64,000 bases of DNA, from assembly GCF_016865445.1 (NCBI RefSeq), contig NZ_AP024412.1, forward strand, positions 1,240,001 through 1,304,000, given 5' to 3'. The notes under the pieces are model-generated. The model searched no databases. It had not been told where the DNA came from and saw nothing but the letters and a program-made list of their open reading frames with translations. This DNA comes from Mariniplasma anaerobium (GTDB lineage Bacteria; Bacillota_I; Bacilli_A; Acholeplasmatales; Acholeplasmataceae). Both the position numbers and the translations under genes were made by a program. Positions 48,921 to 60,290 of the stretch are shown piece by piece (position 1 is the stretch's first letter; each line of letters opens with the position of its first letter).

Positions 48921-49241
48921 TTATTTGTCTAATTTATATAACAATTCTGGTATATTTACTGTAGCAATGTCATAAATGATATTCAGTCTAATACCTTCGT
49001 ATTCATGTGATATCATATTTCTTAAACCAATAATGCTTGGCCAATGAATAGAATTATAAATTTGTTTTGTCTCATCTGAAAGTTTCTTTGCTGTTTCACC
49101 GATTTGTTCTAGATTTAATATAACTGCATCGACTTTCTCGTCATTGTTCTCAAAGTCTGTGATTGTATCGACTTCTTCCATATATCTGCCAATTTTCTTT
49201 GCATACTTAATGATACGATCAATATATATCTTATCTTTCAT
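48921..49241 (-). CDS. HepT-like ribonuclease toxin (DUF86)
   Basis: A 106-residue helical HEPN protein. The catalytic R-x4-H-x-Y motif is exact (RNMISHEY near 78-85), the signature of the HepT endoribonuclease of the HepT/MntA (type VII) toxin-antitoxin system. In that system the Tyr of the motif is AMPylated by the antitoxin. Its start overlaps the end of the antitoxin gene by 11 bases, so the toxin is made by coupled translation. Confidence 0.9.
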   Translation of the reverse strand: MKDKIYIDRIIKYAKKIGRYMEEVDTITDFENNDEKVDAVILNLEQIGETAKKLSDETKQIYNSIHWPSIIGLRNMISHEYEGIRLNIIYDIATVNIPELLYKLDK

Positions 49242-49725
49242 AAATCAGCGCTCCTGACTTTTTAATTTCTTCATCAATTTTCGAATATTCTTGAACTGTT
49301 TTATTACTTAGAACTTCCACTTTTTTCTTTAAATTTTCTCTTAGTTGTTCAACAAATTCAAAATACTCTAAACCGTATAAATCAGACTCCATATATAGAT
49401 CAACATCACTATTTTGTGTAGCTTGACCTTTGACATATGATCCAAACAAATAAACTTTTTCAATATCATAATTCTTAGCTATTTTACTTATGTTTTCTTT
49501 TATTGTTAAAAATGACAAAACACCTGAGGATTCATCGATCTTAGCATATTCTTCCATTTTTACTCTTAGTAATCTATCCATAACTAAATCAATTGTCCAC
49601 TCGCTGGGTTTCCTTACTTCTTGTTCCCAGTTTCTTAATGTTTTTACTGGTACGCCAGTTAATAATGATACTTGTTCTTGTGTTAATTCTAAGTTTTCTC
49701 TTACTATTTTAATATTATTAGACAT
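49231..49725 (-). CDS. MntA-like nucleotidyltransferase antitoxin with fused N-terminal HTH
   Basis: A 164-residue two-domain protein. Residues about 4-60 form an HTH of the XRE/Cro class (NLELTQEQVSLLTGVPVKTLRNWEQ). Residues about 65-164 are a minimal nucleotidyltransferase with GSYVKGQATQNSDVDLYME, the GS-x10-D-x-D motif intact. MntA proteins usually neutralise HepT by adding AMP groups; the fused HTH would make this antitoxin its own repressor. The ATG at 49725 is preceded by AGGTGGTGA at good distance; an in-frame GTG four codons earlier lies on that site. Two palindromic operator candidates lie at the promoter. Confidence 0.88.
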   Translation of the reverse strand: MSNNIKIVRENLELTQEQVSLLTGVPVKTLRNWEQEVRKPSEWTIDLVMDRLLRVKMEEYAKIDESSGVLSFLTIKENISKIAKNYDIEKVYLFGSYVKGQATQNSDVDLYMESDLYGLEYFEFVEQLRENLKKKVEVLSNKTVQEYSKIDEEIKKSGALIYER

Positions 49726-49747
49726 AGTATTCACCACCTACACCATT

Positions 49748-51781: not shown

Positions 51782-53107
51782 TTATTTTGCTAGTGCTCCC
51801 ATAGGATCCCATGGTTTTAAAACGACTGGTTCTTGTTCCCAAGCTTTCAATTGTTCTTTAGATAGATACTTCTTATTGATAACTGCTTGGTAAACATATT
51901 GATCAAACCATGAGTCAGAAGCCATATAATAGCCTTTTTCTCCTGTTTTATCTCCCCAGCTGTTTTGTATCTTCCATCTCTTTGGAACTTCTTCATCAAG
52001 ATGAACAGCAGTTAGTAACATCGCATGATTCATAGCACTTTGACTGTAATATAGTTGATTTTCTTTTGACATTTCAAAAGACATGCCAAGCATTTCCTCA
52101 TAATCAAATTGTTGGTCATCCCAAACACCTTTAGTTCTATCGCCAAAACGAGCAACATCTGAACCAAACCAAACAACTTCATTATCTAACATTTGTTTAA
52201 TAACAAGTTCTTTTAAATCTTTCATTTCTAAATTTATGTATTTAATGTCTCTACCACCAATAACATTACCTAAATATGAAACTGTATAAGTTTTCATAAA
52301 TGGTTTATCAATTGTTGGTGAATTGATAATAGATACATAGTCTTTTAAGATATCTCCGATTTGTTCTTTATAAAAACTTTGAGGTGTTAACTCTTTAATA
52401 TTTTTATACGTATCTTTTGATACATATTCAAAATCAAATGTTTTTGGAGGTGTACCAAAATTAGTTACAAGCAATGTATAAAAATCATCTAAAGTCTTTT
52501 CTTTTAATGCTTTAATATCTGCTTGTTTACCACTTTGTGCTAAAGCTCTTGCTTCTGCTGCATATTTACGTAATTTAACATTAATCAATTGATTCATAAA
52601 TCTTGTGCCACTAGAAGAAGTGGTTTCAACCATTGCTTCTTGAGGTACAACACCATATTTTTCAATCAGTGATACAAACATATCCCATTGTCCACCATCT
52701 TGAATACCTGTTTTTAAGATGTGTTGCAGGGTTCTATCATCATAATGGACAGTTAAGAAATCATCCATAATTTCGATAAAATAATTGATTTTTTCAAATT
52801 TATCCCAAAAAGCTGTATAGTTTTGTGATAATTCAAAAGATTTTAAATCATATTTGTTTGCGATGACTTCTCTTAAAAGATTAAGTCCTGCAAATATCCA
52901 ACATCTACCACTTTGTTTTTGGTTTGTTACAGGTAATGTTTTAATTTCATTAGAAAACTTAAATTGATTAGATAAACTTGATTCTTGCTTTTCAAATAGA
53001 TCTGCTAAATTGTTTTTAACTAAAACTCTAGATAATGCTTTTTGAACAGGTTTTTTACTAAAACTATTATTTAGTTTGTCAATGTCATTAGGTGTGATTG
53101 CTTTCAT
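51782..53107 (-). CDS. pepC: Aminopeptidase C (C1B, bleomycin hydrolase family)
   Basis: Papain-fold cytoplasmic aminopeptidase of 441 residues, the usual length of PepC. The catalytic Cys lies in NQKQSGRCWIFAGLN near 70, His in SAMNHAMLLTAVH near 361, and Asn in KIQNSWGDKTGEKGYYMASD near 383. Its C terminus (WDPMGALAK) resembles the C-terminal tail that enters the active site in this family. It starts 19 bases after the JetC-like gene and probably shares that transcript, in the place where a JetD gene would be expected. Confidence 0.93.
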   Translation of the reverse strand: MKAITPNDIDKLNNSFSKKPVQKALSRVLVKNNLADLFEKQESSLSNQFKFSNEIKTLPVTNQKQSGRCWIFAGLNLLREVIANKYDLKSFELSQNYTAFWDKFEKINYFIEIMDDFLTVHYDDRTLQHILKTGIQDGGQWDMFVSLIEKYGVVPQEAMVETTSSSGTRFMNQLINVKLRKYAAEARALAQSGKQADIKALKEKTLDDFYTLLVTNFGTPPKTFDFEYVSKDTYKNIKELTPQSFYKEQIGDILKDYVSIINSPTIDKPFMKTYTVSYLGNVIGGRDIKYINLEMKDLKELVIKQMLDNEVVWFGSDVARFGDRTKGVWDDQQFDYEEMLGMSFEMSKENQLYYSQSAMNHAMLLTAVHLDEEVPKRWKIQNSWGDKTGEKGYYMASDSWFDQYVYQAVINKKYLSKEQLKAWEQEPVVLKPWDPMGALAK

Positions 53108-53126: not shown

Positions 53127-56100
53127 CTACATTCTTATTTGACGTTCATCATTAAATGTTTCTACAATTGCATAATCATTATCTTTAACGATCACTAAGC
53201 TCGTATTTACATAGTTAATGATATTTGATACTCTTTGTGGTGGTACTGCGATAAGTAATTGTATACTAAGTGAGTTGTAAAATTTCATCATCGCATCAAT
53301 TCTTGATTCATCCATATTATTAAATGCTTCATCAAATAAGACGATACATCCTGAATCAATTCTTCTATTTTTGGTTAATAATTGTTGGAATGATGCTGCG
53401 ATAACGATATAGAATGGCACTTGTGTTTCACCACCACTCTTTTCTTTAGAAACTTTAGAGAACATAGATTTGTTACCATTAATATTGGTAACTTCAATAT
53501 CATATGACATATAGTTACGATAATCTAAGAATTTATATGTTAATGTGTCATATTCAGGGTCATTTGAAGCTATTTTTTCAAATAACTCCATTAATGCTGC
53601 TTCATTTTTCTTCGTTAAACCTTCTGTAAATAACGTATGCTTGCTAATGGCTTGATTACTCATGATGATGTCATAATACATCTTATAATCAGGATCAGTA
53701 CTTGCTTTATACGTTAACTGATATGAATCACTACCAAAACGTTTGTCTTGTAGGGCATAATTTAATTCCGCAATTTGTTGTTGCGCATTTTCAATACTTG
53801 CTCTTAGTTTACCAACAAATTCTTCTTTAAATCCTGTTTCAGAACTTCTTCTTAATTCAGTAGCTTCTTGTTCATATTTAACTAAATTATTGTTTCTAAT
53901 CTTATTGGCTTCTTGCTCATAATAGACTAATTCTTCTAATGTAGCTGCTGCACCAAAGTGATATGTTTCGTTATAGTTTTTCATAACATTAGCTAATTCA
54001 GTCTTATCTTTGATAATTTGTGAATTTAATGAGACTGAAGAGTTTGCAAGATAATTTGTAATTGAATCATGATCTTGTTTATATTTTTGTTTTAATGCAT
54101 AAAATTGTGTGTTTGCGATACTTAATTTTTCTGGATGTTTTTGTGCAAGAACTTTTTGTTCTTGGACGAATTCATCAAGTTTCATTTGAACATCATCAAT
54201 ACGATCTAGAACACGTTGACGTTCTTCTCTTTGAGTCGCAATCTTTCCAACTAATTCATCAGATTCAAATCTTAATTCTTTCCTTGCAAGTTTAGCTTTT
54301 TCAATTTGCTCTTCAATGTTTTGTAGCGTCTTACTCTTACCTAATGCTAGGATTTGATCTTCAATGGTAGTATATTCTTTTCTTGTGAGTTTAATCAAAT
54401 CAAGGTAACGAATTTGACCTTGATGAAGCAATTGTGCATTTCTAGATTGCAATAGTAATTTTAAAATATGATCATTTTTATCAGTTAAATTATATAATGC
54501 TTGCATTTGTTCTTCTAATCCAGCTAATGTGCGTTCTTCCATTTCAGTTTGAATGGCAGTTGCACTTTGACCGATAAATGGAACTTCATAATTTCTTGGA
54601 TTGATTTGTCTAGCTGTATAATTTGAATACGTCATACATGTGCTTGTGATTGCTCTTTGATAGTTTTTTAATTCTTTAACATCATCAACACACATGATAT
54701 TATTTAACATCATATTAACGTAGTATCTAGCATATTTATGCTCACTAGTTATTTTTGATGCTAGTGTATTTTCGTTTATTTGATCATAGTGTTGTATTTT
54801 TTGGGTATTTACTAGGCCAACACCGTATATTTTTTGATCAAACTTGATACGATCATATATTTCTAATGCATCATTAAAATATTTAGGATCAACAATAATA
54901 TCAAAACGTTGTCCTCCAAGATATCCTTCTAGTGCATTTCTCCATTTTTCATCATTAACTTCAATCATTTCACAAAGCGGTTGAACATTCACTTCTTTTT
55001 GGTAATAATTTGAAAGTTCATCATTTAGTGAAGTAATGAGTTTTTGAACATAATATGGATAAGTTTTGACATGTTTTTTAAGTTGATGTAAGTTAGCTTT
55101 TGACTGACTAATACTACTTGATAAATCTTGTTTATTTTTTTCTAATTTATCTTTTTCAAGTGTATATGCTTGTACTAATGATTTAACATCTTGTTCTAGA
55201 GTACTTAAATGATTGTTAAGTTCTTCTGTGTCAAGTTGATCCATGGATTGTTGATAATATTGAACAAATTGTTTAATGCTTTGATTTGGCATAAGATTAG
55301 CCAATTCTTTCATCACGTTAAATTCTCTTTGTAAGTCTTGTTTAACTTGTAAAACATTTTCTTTTTGTTTTTCATACTCTAAAGCTTTTTTATTCAAGGC
55401 ATCTTGATATGATTGTAGAGTTCTTGAGATATCATTATCATTTTTTGCACGTTCTAGATTTAAAATTGATGTGTCATTTTCATCCATTTGATCATCCAAT
55501 TGAGATTTAGCATCTCTTAAATAATCAAGTTGTTTGTTGATGTTTGTTAATCTATTTTCATTTTCTTTGATAAACTCTTCTCTTTTTTCAACCCAATTTA
55601 ATTGATCAATTAGGTTATTAATATCTTTTTGGCGTATATTTTGTTCAATATCTTCGCCTTTTTCATTGATTAATGTTAATTGTGTTAATTTATCTCTATC
55701 ATTTTTAATTTGCTGCTCAATCTTTTTAAGTTGTGCAACATTGTTTTTTAAGGATTGAATATCAATTGGATCATCATCTAATAAAAACTCAAAAACAAAT
55801 TGTTGTAAATCAATAGATCTGAACGCTAAAGCCTTTGGTAAGATTTTTGCATATTTTGTAGCATCCATGCCAAAAAATCTTGCAAGTGCTTCTCTATATT
55901 TTCTTTGAGACTCAAATGGAGAAAAATCCATATCTAATGTTTTTAAATATGCTTTCATAGATTTATAGTCTCTTGGATATTTCTTATCAAGAAAAAGACT
56001 ATCATGAATAGATATATTATCTAAAAGATAAAATCTTTCTTTTAGATTCCCTGATTTTGGAAGTTCTAAAACAACACCCATTGTTGAATATTGTTTGCTT

Positions 56101-56402
56101 TGTTCATCAAAATATTCTAATGCAAGATGTGTAATCACATCTCCATTTCTTAAGTATTCTTTATTTTCTGCACCGATTCTACCTTTAATGTATCCTTCAA
56201 GTGTACGTTTCGCATCATCAGTAGCTGCTATATTGAATTTTGCGCCACTTCTACCACCGACTAGAAGATATTGCATTGCATCTAATAAAGTCGATTTACC
56301 AGATCCATTTTCACCTGATATTAAAGCATTGTCTTTAATATCTATCGTTTGATTTGAAAATAAATGCCAATTAATTAATTTAATCTTCGTCAATTTCTTC
56401 AT
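53127..56402 (-). CDS. JetC-like SMC/MukB-type ATPase (Wadjet/MksB family)
   Basis: Large condensin-like motor of 1091 residues. It begins KKLTKIKLINWHLFSNQTIDI, with Walker A GENGSGKST near 30, then about 800 residues of long coiled coils around a central hinge-like part. The C-terminal head has the ABC signature KSGGETQVPFYIVIAA and Walker B IVLFDEAFNNMDE. This is the layout of JetC/MksB rather than of Smc. The ATG at 56402 is chosen because the N terminus then fits the family; GGAG lies 12 bases upstream, and a TTG-opened frame 11 codons longer is less likely. It overlaps the JetB-like gene by 23 bases. It would extrude DNA loops together with the JetA and JetB kleisin-type partners. Confidence 0.88.
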   Translation of the reverse strand: MKKLTKIKLINWHLFSNQTIDIKDNALISGENGSGKSTLLDAMQYLLVGGRSGAKFNIAATDDAKRTLEGYIKGRIGAENKEYLRNGDVITHLALEYFDEQSKQYSTMGVVLELPKSGNLKERFYLLDNISIHDSLFLDKKYPRDYKSMKAYLKTLDMDFSPFESQRKYREALARFFGMDATKYAKILPKALAFRSIDLQQFVFEFLLDDDPIDIQSLKNNVAQLKKIEQQIKNDRDKLTQLTLINEKGEDIEQNIRQKDINNLIDQLNWVEKREEFIKENENRLTNINKQLDYLRDAKSQLDDQMDENDTSILNLERAKNDNDISRTLQSYQDALNKKALEYEKQKENVLQVKQDLQREFNVMKELANLMPNQSIKQFVQYYQQSMDQLDTEELNNHLSTLEQDVKSLVQAYTLEKDKLEKNKQDLSSSISQSKANLHQLKKHVKTYPYYVQKLITSLNDELSNYYQKEVNVQPLCEMIEVNDEKWRNALEGYLGGQRFDIIVDPKYFNDALEIYDRIKFDQKIYGVGLVNTQKIQHYDQINENTLASKITSEHKYARYYVNMMLNNIMCVDDVKELKNYQRAITSTCMTYSNYTARQINPRNYEVPFIGQSATAIQTEMEERTLAGLEEQMQALYNLTDKNDHILKLLLQSRNAQLLHQGQIRYLDLIKLTRKEYTTIEDQILALGKSKTLQNIEEQIEKAKLARKELRFESDELVGKIATQREERQRVLDRIDDVQMKLDEFVQEQKVLAQKHPEKLSIANTQFYALKQKYKQDHDSITNYLANSSVSLNSQIIKDKTELANVMKNYNETYHFGAAATLEELVYYEQEANKIRNNNLVKYEQEATELRRSSETGFKEEFVGKLRASIENAQQQIAELNYALQDKRFGSDSYQLTYKASTDPDYKMYYDIIMSNQAISKHTLFTEGLTKKNEAALMELFEKIASNDPEYDTLTYKFLDYRNYMSYDIEVTNINGNKSMFSKVSKEKSGGETQVPFYIVIAASFQQLLTKNRRIDSGCIVLFDEAFNNMDESRIDAMMKFYNSLSIQLLIAVPPQRVSNIINYVNTSLVIVKDNDYAIVETFNDERQIRM

Positions 56403-57018
56403 AATCAGATGTATCTCCTTCCGCATATGCTTCAAATTTATCTACGACTTCTTTAATAGATTCTAGATTTGTAACATATAAGATTGTTGGATATATTTTG
56501 ATTCTTGCATCATCGTTTAATCCACGATCAATGTAATCAATCATATTGTAATTTCTTAAAAACGTTAATGCTGGTTTCAAACGATCTTTTGTAATACGCT
56601 TATGATCAAGATATCCAATTCTTGTAAGTTCACTATGTATTTCATGCAAGAAGATTTCTACATCATCATCTAATGTGACAAAATCTTTTTTTCTTTGAAA
56701 TAATATACGAAGAATTAATAACATTATTGTTTCAGTTTTTCTTAAGCGCATATGATTAAATAATTGTTCATTTGAAATATAAACAACTTCATCATCTCTA
56801 TGAATATTTAGATTGAAATCAGCTAAAGTGAAATATGCCTCAAAAACTTCTTTATACGCAAGAATAAATCTATAATCGTTTGCATCTCCAGGTTTTCTTT
56901 TGGTTAAAAAATTAACTTGAAGTAATTTATTGACGATTCTAGAAACATTATTTTTTTCGCCTTCTTTTAAGTTGAAGTATATATCATTTAATTGTTTCAT
57001 TGCATTTGTTTTATTCAT
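56380..57018 (-). CDS. JetB-like protein (DUF4194)
   Basis: A 212-residue protein of the DUF4194 family, the JetB/MksE (kite) subunit of Wadjet and Mks condensins. Winged-helix-like stretches are visible, as in NVSRIVNKLLQVNFLTKR near the N terminus and ITKDRLKPALTFLRNYNMIDYI near 145. The acidic tail (EGDTSDYEEIDED) is encoded over the JetC ribosome site. It starts two bases after JetA. It would bind the JetA kleisin and regulate the ATPase. Confidence 0.82.
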   Translation of the reverse strand: MNKTNAMKQLNDIYFNLKEGEKNNVSRIVNKLLQVNFLTKRKPGDANDYRFILAYKEVFEAYFTLADFNLNIHRDDEVVYISNEQLFNHMRLRKTETIMLLILRILFQRKKDFVTLDDDVEIFLHEIHSELTRIGYLDHKRITKDRLKPALTFLRNYNMIDYIDRGLNDDARIKIYPTILYVTNLESIKEVVDKFEAYAEGDTSDYEEIDED

Positions 57019-57020
57019 AA

Positions 57021-58397
57021 TTATATGCTCCTTATAATGAAGTTTTGGAATGTTACGAAATTATTCTTGCATTTATCTTTAGTAAGTTTAACTTCATAGT
57101 GCATACCTACTGATTTTGAATATAAGAATATCAAAATGAGTTTAACGTAATCTTCTTGTGTTTCAAGTAGAATATCTTTAGCTTCAATTTCTTTTTGTTG
57201 TCCTAAAGTAGATTTCACGTATAAATCAATTTCTTTTTTACCATAAATATTATTTTTGAGTAATGCTTTGATTTTCTCTTTTCTGTATGCATCAGAGATA
57301 AAACTATCATCAAAATTGATTTCTTCAGGTTCTGGTAGTACTCTTTGTCTTCTTTGATTATAAAGTGAATCCGTATCCAAGTTTTTCATCTGAGTGATAT
57401 GAAAGAGTTGATTGTAATCTAAATCACTGTGATTGAGTAAAATTCTAAACAATCTGTTAAATATACCTTCTATATCATCTGATTGATTGGTGAAGAATAA
57501 AATCTTAGAAGCTGCTGCTGAAATATACTGTTCATTCTTACGGTCAATCGCTAAGATTAAATACTCTAGTGCAGAAAAACTATCTGTAATAAACCTCATA
57601 CGATCTTCAACATATAAAAATGCTTCATTATAATCTTCAATACGTTTGACTTTAATGACAACTTTTGCAAGCTCATCCATTAAATCTGCATCATTTTGTA
57701 TGTTAGAAATTGATTCTAAGATGCCTCTTTTATATCTAGATAAACTATCTGTCGTTTTTAAATTATAATATGCTGAATCAAAGAAATTTTGCTTATATTC
57801 AACAAGTAGTTTTTCTAATAATTGAGGTAGGTCATTTTTAGAATGTTTTTTTGTGATGTCATAATAATAACGATAAATATTAGCTTTTAAAGCTTTTAGT
57901 TTTCTAATAATATCATTTGTTTTTAAATACGCTTGTTCTAAAACACCGATACCTTCTTCAATTGTAAAACTAGACAAAAGAGAATACACTGTGTAGATTT
58001 CTCCTGTGTATTCGTTTTGTTGATTATTTTTTATGCGACTTAATATATCTATGATTTGGATGGAATAATCAAAAAGATTTAACGAGGTTTTATAATTACC
58101 TAATTCCTCTTCACCTAACCATCCATTCTTTTTTAATACATTAATAACGTGAATCGCTTTTTGTCTTGAAGTGTTTGATTGTTCATCTTCATCCATGTCT
58201 AAAAATTCATCAGTTTGTTGATCATCAAAATAATCAACTAACTTGGAAACGATGAATTCTCGATCCCCCTGAAAAGCATCTTCAATCGTATCAATAGCAT
58301 TATAAATAATGAAAATACAATCGACATATGTATTTCTATTTGGGGAGGAAAGCACACTAAAAAAATTGTCATGCATCCTGTCAAACAAATGTGCCAT
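57021..58397 (-). CDS. JetA-like kleisin (DUF5716)
   Basis: A 458-residue protein of the Wadjet JetA / MksF type (DUF5716). It is mostly helical, with an N-terminal AHLFDRMHDNFFSVLSSPNRNTYVDCIFI and the dimerisation-type helices in the first 120 residues. The C-terminal third (about 370-458) should contact the JetC head. GGAGGAC lies four bases before the ATG. It is the first gene of the operon and directly follows the DEAD-box helicase gene. The order JetA-JetB-JetC is that of known Wadjet loci, but no JetD nuclease gene follows. Confidence 0.82.
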   Translation of the reverse strand: MAHLFDRMHDNFFSVLSSPNRNTYVDCIFIIYNAIDTIEDAFQGDREFIVSKLVDYFDDQQTDEFLDMDEDEQSNTSRQKAIHVINVLKKNGWLGEEELGNYKTSLNLFDYSIQIIDILSRIKNNQQNEYTGEIYTVYSLLSSFTIEEGIGVLEQAYLKTNDIIRKLKALKANIYRYYYDITKKHSKNDLPQLLEKLLVEYKQNFFDSAYYNLKTTDSLSRYKRGILESISNIQNDADLMDELAKVVIKVKRIEDYNEAFLYVEDRMRFITDSFSALEYLILAIDRKNEQYISAAASKILFFTNQSDDIEGIFNRLFRILLNHSDLDYNQLFHITQMKNLDTDSLYNQRRQRVLPEPEEINFDDSFISDAYRKEKIKALLKNNIYGKKEIDLYVKSTLGQQKEIEAKDILLETQEDYVKLILIFLYSKSVGMHYEVKLTKDKCKNNFVTFQNFIIRSI

Positions 58398-58487: not shown

Positions 58488-60191
58488 TTATTTTTTTGTA
58501 ATTTTAAACTTTAATTTACGACCTTTAAATACTTTATCTGTAAGTTGGTCTAGCCTTTTCACAGCTTTCACGTGAATTTCAAAGTCTGTATGATCATCAC
58601 TGATATTGATATCACCAATGTTACTAGGATACATATCAGCGTTTTTCTTGAAATAGTCTAATAAATGAGGCGCTCTTAATCCATCATTTTTACCAAGATT
58701 GATAGTAGCTGTAAAGTATTGTTTTGAATTGTCATCTCTTCTATTTGATTGATCTCTAGATCCACTTCTTGATGAATCTCTTGAGCCACTTCTTGATTGA
58801 TCTCTTGAGCCACTTCTTGATCTATTTCTTGAACCACTTCTTGATTGATCTTTTGAAAAATTATTATCTTGTCTAGTTCTAGGTTTAGATATATCTTCAT
58901 AAGTTTTTATTTGAACTGATAGTTTCTTAATTAAGGCAGAAATGATATCATCTTTATCGTAACCAAGTTCTACAAACTTAGCAATTAGCATATCGTAATT
59001 GGTTTCGTTTGAATCTGTTTCATGTTTGATTTGTTCAAATAAAGTTTCTTCTTGTTTTGCTTGAATTTCTATTAGTGTAGGTATTTCTAATTCTACCATT
59101 TGTTGCTTGATAAATTTTTCAATCATGAATAATTTGCCTCTCATTGAAGGATAAACAAATGATACAGATTTACCTGATAATCCTGCACGAGCAGTTCTAC
59201 CAATTCTATGTACATATATTTCATCTTCAAATGGTAATTCATAATTAAATACCATATCAACATGTGATACATCAAGCCCACGTGCTGCAACATCTGTTGC
59301 AATTAATAATGTAAGTCTTCTTGATCTAAAGCGATTCATAACATAATCTCTTTGAGATTGTTTTAAATCTCCATGAAGTGCATCTGCTTCATATGAATAT
59401 TTTTGCAAAAACGCTGCAAGATGATCAACATCTCTTTTTGTGTTTGCAAATATAATTGCTGATGAAGGATTATAAAAATCTAGAGCTCTTAATAAAAGTT
59501 GATCGCGATCTGTTTTTTTAATCATGTAATAAAATTGATCAATTTTATCAACAGTAAGTGATTTTGTTTTAATCTTTATAATTTCTGGAGTTTTTTGATA
59601 TTTTTTTGCAACTTCTTTAATAAATGCTGGAATAGTTGCTGAAAATAATGCTGTTTGTCTTTCTTGTGGTGTGTCTTTTAAAAGTGTTTCTAAGTCTTCT
59701 TGAAAGCCCATCTTAAGCATTTCATCTGCTTCATCCATAATTAACATATCTAAACTCGATAAGTCAATAGTTCCACGATGTAAATGATCAATTGCTCTAC
59801 CAGGAGTTGCTACAACGATTTGTGGATGTTCTTTAAGTGCTTTAAATTGTTTTTGATATGATTCTCCACCATATATGGATGTAATTTTAATTTGTTTATT
59901 AAATTTAACAAGTTTTAAAAATTCTTTGTAAACTTGTAAAGTTAATTCTCTAGTTGGACAAATGACAAGTCCTTGTATGTTTTTATTGTCAAGATCGATA
60001 TGTTCAATCATAGGAATAGCAAAAGCAAATGTTTTCCCTGTTCCTGTTTGTGCTTGACCAATGAGATCTTTTTTCTCTAACATCAATGGAATTGCATGAT
60101 GTTGAATGTCTGTTGTTTCAACCAAACCTAAAGCTTCTATAGCTTGTTTTGTTTCTTCTTTAATCGGTAAATCTTTAAATAATATATTCAT
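58488..60191 (-). CDS. DEAD-box RNA helicase with RS-repeat tail and DbpA-type RNA-binding domain
   Basis: ATP-dependent RNA helicase of 567 residues, CshA/DeaD-like. The motifs are in order: Q motif, AQTGTGKT, PTRELT, TPGRAID, DEAD, SAT, RGLD and HRIGRTARAG. After the core comes a linker with four copies of an eight-residue SRSGSR-x-x repeat (about 443-474), then a C-terminal DbpA-type RNA-binding domain (about 490-567) with a LRAPHLLDYFKKN start. It would act in ribosome assembly or RNA turnover. The ATG at 60191 has GAGG six bases upstream; the four-codon-longer TTG start is rejected. Confidence 0.9.
   Translation of the reverse strand: MNILFKDLPIKEETKQAIEALGLVETTDIQHHAIPLMLEKKDLIGQAQTGTGKTFAFAIPMIEHIDLDNKNIQGLVICPTRELTLQVYKEFLKLVKFNKQIKITSIYGGESYQKQFKALKEHPQIVVATPGRAIDHLHRGTIDLSSLDMLIMDEADEMLKMGFQEDLETLLKDTPQERQTALFSATIPAFIKEVAKKYQKTPEIIKIKTKSLTVDKIDQFYYMIKKTDRDQLLLRALDFYNPSSAIIFANTKRDVDHLAAFLQKYSYEADALHGDLKQSQRDYVMNRFRSRRLTLLIATDVAARGLDVSHVDMVFNYELPFEDEIYVHRIGRTARAGLSGKSVSFVYPSMRGKLFMIEKFIKQQMVELEIPTLIEIQAKQEETLFEQIKHETDSNETNYDMLIAKFVELGYDKDDIISALIKKLSVQIKTYEDISKPRTRQDNNFSKDQSRSGSRNRSRSGSRDQSRSGSRDSSRSGSRDQSNRRDDNSKQYFTATINLGKNDGLRAPHLLDYFKKNADMYPSNIGDINISDDHTDFEIHVKAVKRLDQLTDKVFKGRKLKFKITKK
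58751..58850 (-). repeat. 24-bp tandem repeat inside the helicase gene
   Basis: About four imperfect copies of a 24-base unit coding for the Ser/Arg repeat. The repeat keeps the reading frame, so copy-number change would lengthen or shorten the tail without breaking the protein. Confidence 0.75.
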
Positions 60192-60290
60192 CTTTTTCCT
60201 CAATTCTTTTTAACCTTACTAACTATATCATATATAAACTAAAATTGCTACATTATTGATGAAATATCCCTATATTTTAGTCATATATAA

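Follow-up and report, generated by a model that had tools for sequence, protein, structure and literature searches.

The nuclease-free JetABC complex encoded by the wall-less bacterium Mariniplasma anaerobium is probably the resident chromosomal condensin of the order Acholeplasmatales, standing in for Smc-ScpAB much as MukBEF came to do in the enterobacteria. In most bacteria chromosome compaction and resolution are carried out by Smc-ScpAB, and in enterobacteria by MukBEF; Wadjet is best known for plasmid destruction, and loop extrusion is known for its JetABCD motor. The basis for our reading is comparative throughout: JetABC is kept exactly where Smc-ScpAB is missing, so that its most likely task is to fold and separate the chromosome of the cell itself, and its homologues in relatives, apparently those of the plant-pathogenic phytoplasmas among them, are almost always nuclease-free, which points to housekeeping. 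Neither damage to a defence system nor the splitting of one accounts for it. In the mechanism that we propose, JetA, JetB and JetC would assemble into a kleisin-KITE-SMC motor with no cutting subunit, this motor would bind DNA and extrude loops, and it would compact and resolve the replicated chromosome, a role suggested by its distribution and by selection.

The jet Operon and Its Products

The operon lies in a window of 64,000 nucleotides, the whole stretch of DNA that was analysed, and its genes, read with the standard code (TGA as a stop), bring the type I JetA, JetB and JetC families together by both Pfam and PADLOC (Table 1). The preliminary description had recognised a kleisin, a DUF4194 protein and a 1091-residue MukB-like ATPase, identities that Pfam, PADLOC and fold searches all upheld. 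JetA matched the Pfam family "Wadjet protein JetA" with E=1.5e-79, JetB matched DUF4194 with E=5.8e-25 and JetC matched SbcC_Walker_B with E=2.2e-25; the PADLOC scores were 323 bits for JetA1, 209 bits for JetB1 and 1075 bits for JetC1. The AlphaFold2 model of JetA, of moderate confidence (pLDDT 73, pTM 0.53), had MukF and E. coli JetA as its best PDB matches, and the best matches of the JetB model (pLDDT 83) were JetB of P. aeruginosa and E. coli, and MukE. The JetC profile matched the solved JetC chains 8as8/9qxt at 1e-39. In the 1091-aa form of JetC all three ATPase motifs are intact, as had been described: GENGSGKST at position 30 is Walker A, SGGE at 989 is the signature and VLFDEAF at 1021 is Walker B. 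Their key residues do not vary across a family alignment of 17 sequences. All of the subunit types of an SMC/Muk-like condensin are therefore present, namely a kleisin, a KITE protein and a coiled-coil ABC ATPase with intact motifs. JetC itself is not a MukB by the MukB model, against which it scored 34.9 bits where the curated cut-off is 699.

The three genes had been described as overlapping, a slightly loose wording, as jetB and jetC overlap by 23 bp and jetA and jetB abut with a 2-bp gap. An alternative in-frame TTG start would extend jetC to an ORF of 53127-56435 (-). The two flanking genes are as first reported. The end of pepC at 53107 leaves a gap of 19 bases to jetC, and the upstream helicase, which carries a DbpA-type RNA-binding domain by Pfam, is a DEAD-box RNA helicase with no tie to defence. 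Elsewhere in the family, pepC also adjoins the jet locus of several members, and in family f1 the helicase has been conserved next to the jet genes, occurring at 17 of the loci that were compared. Near the operon, at 48921-49737, is a toxin-antitoxin module of the HepT-MntA type, a pair made up of a HepT-like gene (PF01934) and an HTH-nucleotidyltransferase gene (PF18765).

Table 1. Features of the jet locus and its flanks (window positions) and of the g112 loci (positions within each locus).
Feature	Coordinates	Strand	Description and evidence
jetA	57021..58397	-	Kleisin-type subunit, 458 aa; PF18982, PADLOC JetA1, AlphaFold2 model
jetB	56380..57018	-	KITE-type subunit, DUF4194, 212 aa; PF13835, PADLOC JetB1, AlphaFold2 model
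jetC	53127..56402	-	MukB/SMC-like ATPase, 1091 aa from ATG; PADLOC JetC1, motifs
pepC (Peptidase_C1-like)	51782..53107	-	PF03051, E=4.5e-159; in the place expected for jetD; outside the system
DEAD-box RNA helicase	58488..60203	-	PF00270, PF00271, PF03880; upstream; outside the system
g112 helicase-nuclease + JetABC loci	L143:887-12155, L144:958-12168, L228:3522-14903, L229:3507-14850, L230:246-11573

Absence of JetD

The TOPRIM nuclease JetD that adjoins jetC in Wadjet type I is missing here. A JetD profile built in this analysis had no match within the window, and JetD_C (PF09983) had none in the whole genome (1.9 Mb, 2 contigs, 99.98% complete), in a search that was positive in Corynebacterium glutamicum and that detected JetD in other genomes of the class. 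The full-genome search had been proposed in the preliminary description, whose report of an operon lacking JetD now holds for the window and the genome alike, and it ruled out a split Wadjet with its JetD encoded elsewhere. The second contig was considered as a small plasmid and that, too, was ruled out, as it belongs to the chromosome and has topoisomerase IV genes.

Across the order, JetD was present in 7 of 150 genomes and absent in 143; in every JetD-holding locus that was fetched it lay directly behind or beside the jet genes. It had been argued at the outset that homologues always nuclease-free and essential in relatives would point to housekeeping, and the nuclease-free part of that expectation is borne out almost completely. 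A replacement nuclease downstream was ruled out as well, the neighbours there being metabolic or divisional and varying between families. The comparison of neighbours in relatives revealed stable housekeeping surroundings, and no nuclease recurred among the f1-f4 loci compared. Of the three options originally left standing, the nuclease-free condensin is thus strongly favoured, with no JetD in the genome and no recurring nuclease neighbour in this lineage to replace it; a nuclease working in trans would still be compatible with the sequences. Conservation differences between JetD-bearing and JetD-less copies were also searched for a signature of the JetD interface; they formed no concentrated patch, and this line was dropped.

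Distribution of JetABC and Smc-ScpAB

The host belongs to the Acholeplasmataceae, and the closest named relatives of its JetC are in Acholeplasmataceae MAGs, Tenericutes bacterium MO-XQ and four Acholeplasma species (A. laidlawii, A. oculi, A. granularum and A. equifetale). Profile searches found JetC in 125 and JetA in 120 of the 150 genomes of the order. In families f1-f4, by our own count, 124 of the 137 sampled genomes have JetA and/or JetC, and of the 13 with neither, ten belong to genus g10, two to g13 and one to g12. This is not the sporadic, horizontally spread distribution of Wadjet type I. None of the components that define Smc-ScpAB was found: with working controls, ScpA was detected in 0/150 genomes, ScpB in 0/100 and Smc above its curated cut-off in 0/150. 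Weaker matches to the Smc profile included JetC genes themselves (e.g., in G058 and G055) and other coiled-coil proteins.

Some relatives have neither JetABC nor Smc-ScpAB by the profiles used, namely ten phytoplasma-like genomes, three small f1 genomes (g12, g13) and 11 of the 13 f5 genomes (G005, G009, G016, G019, G022, G025 and others). Cells of the order can apparently manage without either complex, or use something undetected, and hence the essentiality of JetABC is not implied. The other two f5 genomes have JetC, with JetD. That several relatives have lost JetABC and are still without Smc-ScpAB is in keeping with an accessory condensin or DNA-bridging complex, dispensable for bulk segregation, most of which would be handled by ParAB, FtsK and topoisomerase IV. 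The host genome does retain ParA and ParB at the gidAB locus, where no clear parS site was found beside parB. We nevertheless regard an accessory role as unlikely, because no SMC-type condensin other than JetABC is detectable, and almost every non-reduced f1-f4 genome retains it.

The sampling of the whole class (296 genomes) revealed that JetA, present in 81 genomes, and ScpA, present in 135, largely exclude each other by family. Only 10 genomes had both, with JetA alone in 71, ScpA alone in 125 and neither in 90 (Fisher p=3e-13, a value that ignores kinship and is to be read together with the family pattern). The ten genomes with both belong only to families f12 and f17, in which JetD-bearing copies are frequent. 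In f12 a JetD-less copy occurs alongside ScpA in the same genome, which counts against replacement of the condensin. An f17 genome (G250), which also has ScpA, contains at locus L161 a JetD-less JetABC whose JetC is extremely divergent (end branch 4.8).

Reduced Genomes

Genus g10 of the Acholeplasmataceae, with genomes of 0.3-0.9 Mb, appears from size, family and gene content to be "Candidatus Phytoplasma". Ten g10 genomes in our sample lack both JetA and JetC. Full-length JetC and JetB persist in phytoplasma-like genomes of 0.5-0.8 Mb, and in most g10 members with the complex jetB and jetC are together and jetA is elsewhere, with all of the genes open. Their dN/dS values are 0.13-0.35. The phytoplasma-like loci in which jetA lies apart from jetB-jetC are L095, L098-L102 and L213-L222, and in L222 jetB is also apart from jetC. 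A review (PMC3322544) calls the chromosome-partitioning repertoire of phytoplasmas sparse and considers it to be probably concealed among hypothetical proteins; JetABC is a concrete candidate.

Copies with a Nuclease

Four genomes (G007, G054, G058, G062) have, besides their resident JetD-less copy, another one that is followed directly by JetD (L112, L115, L117, L119). They offer a natural contrast between what we propose to be the chromosomal and the defence versions of one complex.

A different arrangement was seen in genus g112 of family f11, where, in five of six genomes, a gene of ~1950-2010 aa is followed after 50-60 bp by a JetD-less JetABC. The two of these large genes that were scanned have DUF4011, a superfamily-1-type helicase and a REase_MTES_1575 nuclease domain, and matched PDC-S37 and Hhe in PADLOC. 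The g112 locus is a candidate for a Wadjet variant with a swapped nuclease. Such an arrangement implies that nuclease swaps may exist, and together with the defence role that the same JetABC core has elsewhere it lends something to the idea that JetABC in the order senses circular DNA and recruits a non-JetD nuclease encoded elsewhere for plasmid defence. That idea seems very unlikely to us, as the f1-f4 loci have no recurring nuclease neighbour and the retention of the complex is near-universal, vertical and strongly constrained, even in very small genomes, unlike that of Wadjet.

Inheritance, Selection and Origins

The vertical inheritance of the proposed condensin was apparent in a JetC tree of 90 rows, in which the phytoplasma-like rows were left out. 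The JetD-less rows of f1 (24/24), f3 (16/16) and f24 (11/11) formed one group each, as did the JetD-less copies of f21, f23, f7 and f2, and the JetD-bearing copies were placed elsewhere, mostly on long branches. Family f11 was split in two because genus g112 is aberrant. Neighbourhoods, with names taken from Pfam for the scanned genes and otherwise read by eye from the sequence, had a family character as well. The jet loci of f24 adjoin grpE-dnaK-dnaJ and rsmE, and those of f1 have the DEAD helicase ahead and pepC or a ptsI-like gene after. In f3 the division gene sepF directly follows jetC in 16/16 loci (PF04472 confirmed in three); among these loci are L110, L111, L125 and L127. Against the nearest relative, dN/dS was 0.05 for JetA, 0.05 for JetC and 0.09 for JetB, indicating strong purifying selection. 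The missing fourth gene might suggest the decaying remnant of a Wadjet operon after loss of jetD, a notion that is scarcely credible given dN/dS values of about 0.05, which contradict decay, the invariant ATPase motifs and the family-wide conservation.

The history of the JetD-less copies appears to be more complicated. When f1 and the f2/f3/f4/f23/f24 group were forced into a single clade, the constraint was rejected with JetC (p=5e-9, LG+G4) and with JetA+JetB (p=0.002, mixture model), in AU tests on a 33-row set with long branches and with groups defined after a first tree had been seen. These results suggest that the JetD-less state arose more than once, and with a single origin rejected by the gene trees, conversion may have happened repeatedly. 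We tentatively propose a scenario, somewhat short of an even bet, in which Wadjet motors were turned at least twice independently, without their nuclease, into a resident condensin, Smc-ScpAB was lost and phytoplasmas came to partition their chromosomes via JetABC. Change may also have run in the opposite direction, with defence copies arising from ancestral nuclease-free condensins by a gain of JetD.

If the condensin reading is true, this would be a further replacement of Smc-ScpAB, by a complex on the defence side of the family. It would show how the presence or absence of an attached nuclease can decide whether a motor acts in plasmid defence or in chromosome condensation. Any annotation tool that names these genes as Wadjet would then wrongly credit a whole order with plasmid defence. 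In the open-licence literature, the part that was searched, no report of JetABC replacing Smc-ScpAB was found.

Comparison with Known Systems

With Wadjet type I (JetABCD / MksBEFG / EptABCD) the operon shares its subunit families and the A-B-C gene order. It differs in having no JetD nuclease, in its vertical and near-universal distribution, in the lack of a defence-island context and in its occurrence where Smc-ScpAB is missing. Casting the operon as a Wadjet defence system, as was done at first, is not supported. Wadjet has been described as sporadic in distribution (PMC10586767) and as present in under 10% of genomes (PMC12287153), the opposite of the pattern of JetABC, which fits a housekeeping condensin.

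MukBEF, which replaced Smc-ScpAB in enterobacteria and their relatives (PMC10586767), is likewise a kleisin-KITE-SMC condensin, and the predicted structures of JetA and JetB resemble MukF and MukE, whereas JetC, at about 1090 aa against the 1486 positions of the MukB model, scores weakly against MukB. The MksBEF of Pseudomonas aeruginosa is an Mks-type condensin with a chromosomal role (PMC7485682), the role proposed here, and the initial likening of the operon to it was right in kind. MksBEF works beside Smc-ScpAB in that organism, whereas JetABC, in an order without Smc-ScpAB, appears to be the sole SMC-type condensin of the organisms sampled and not an accessory one. Smc-ScpAB belongs to other protein families and has no detected member in the order, and it is its biological role that JetABC is proposed to share.
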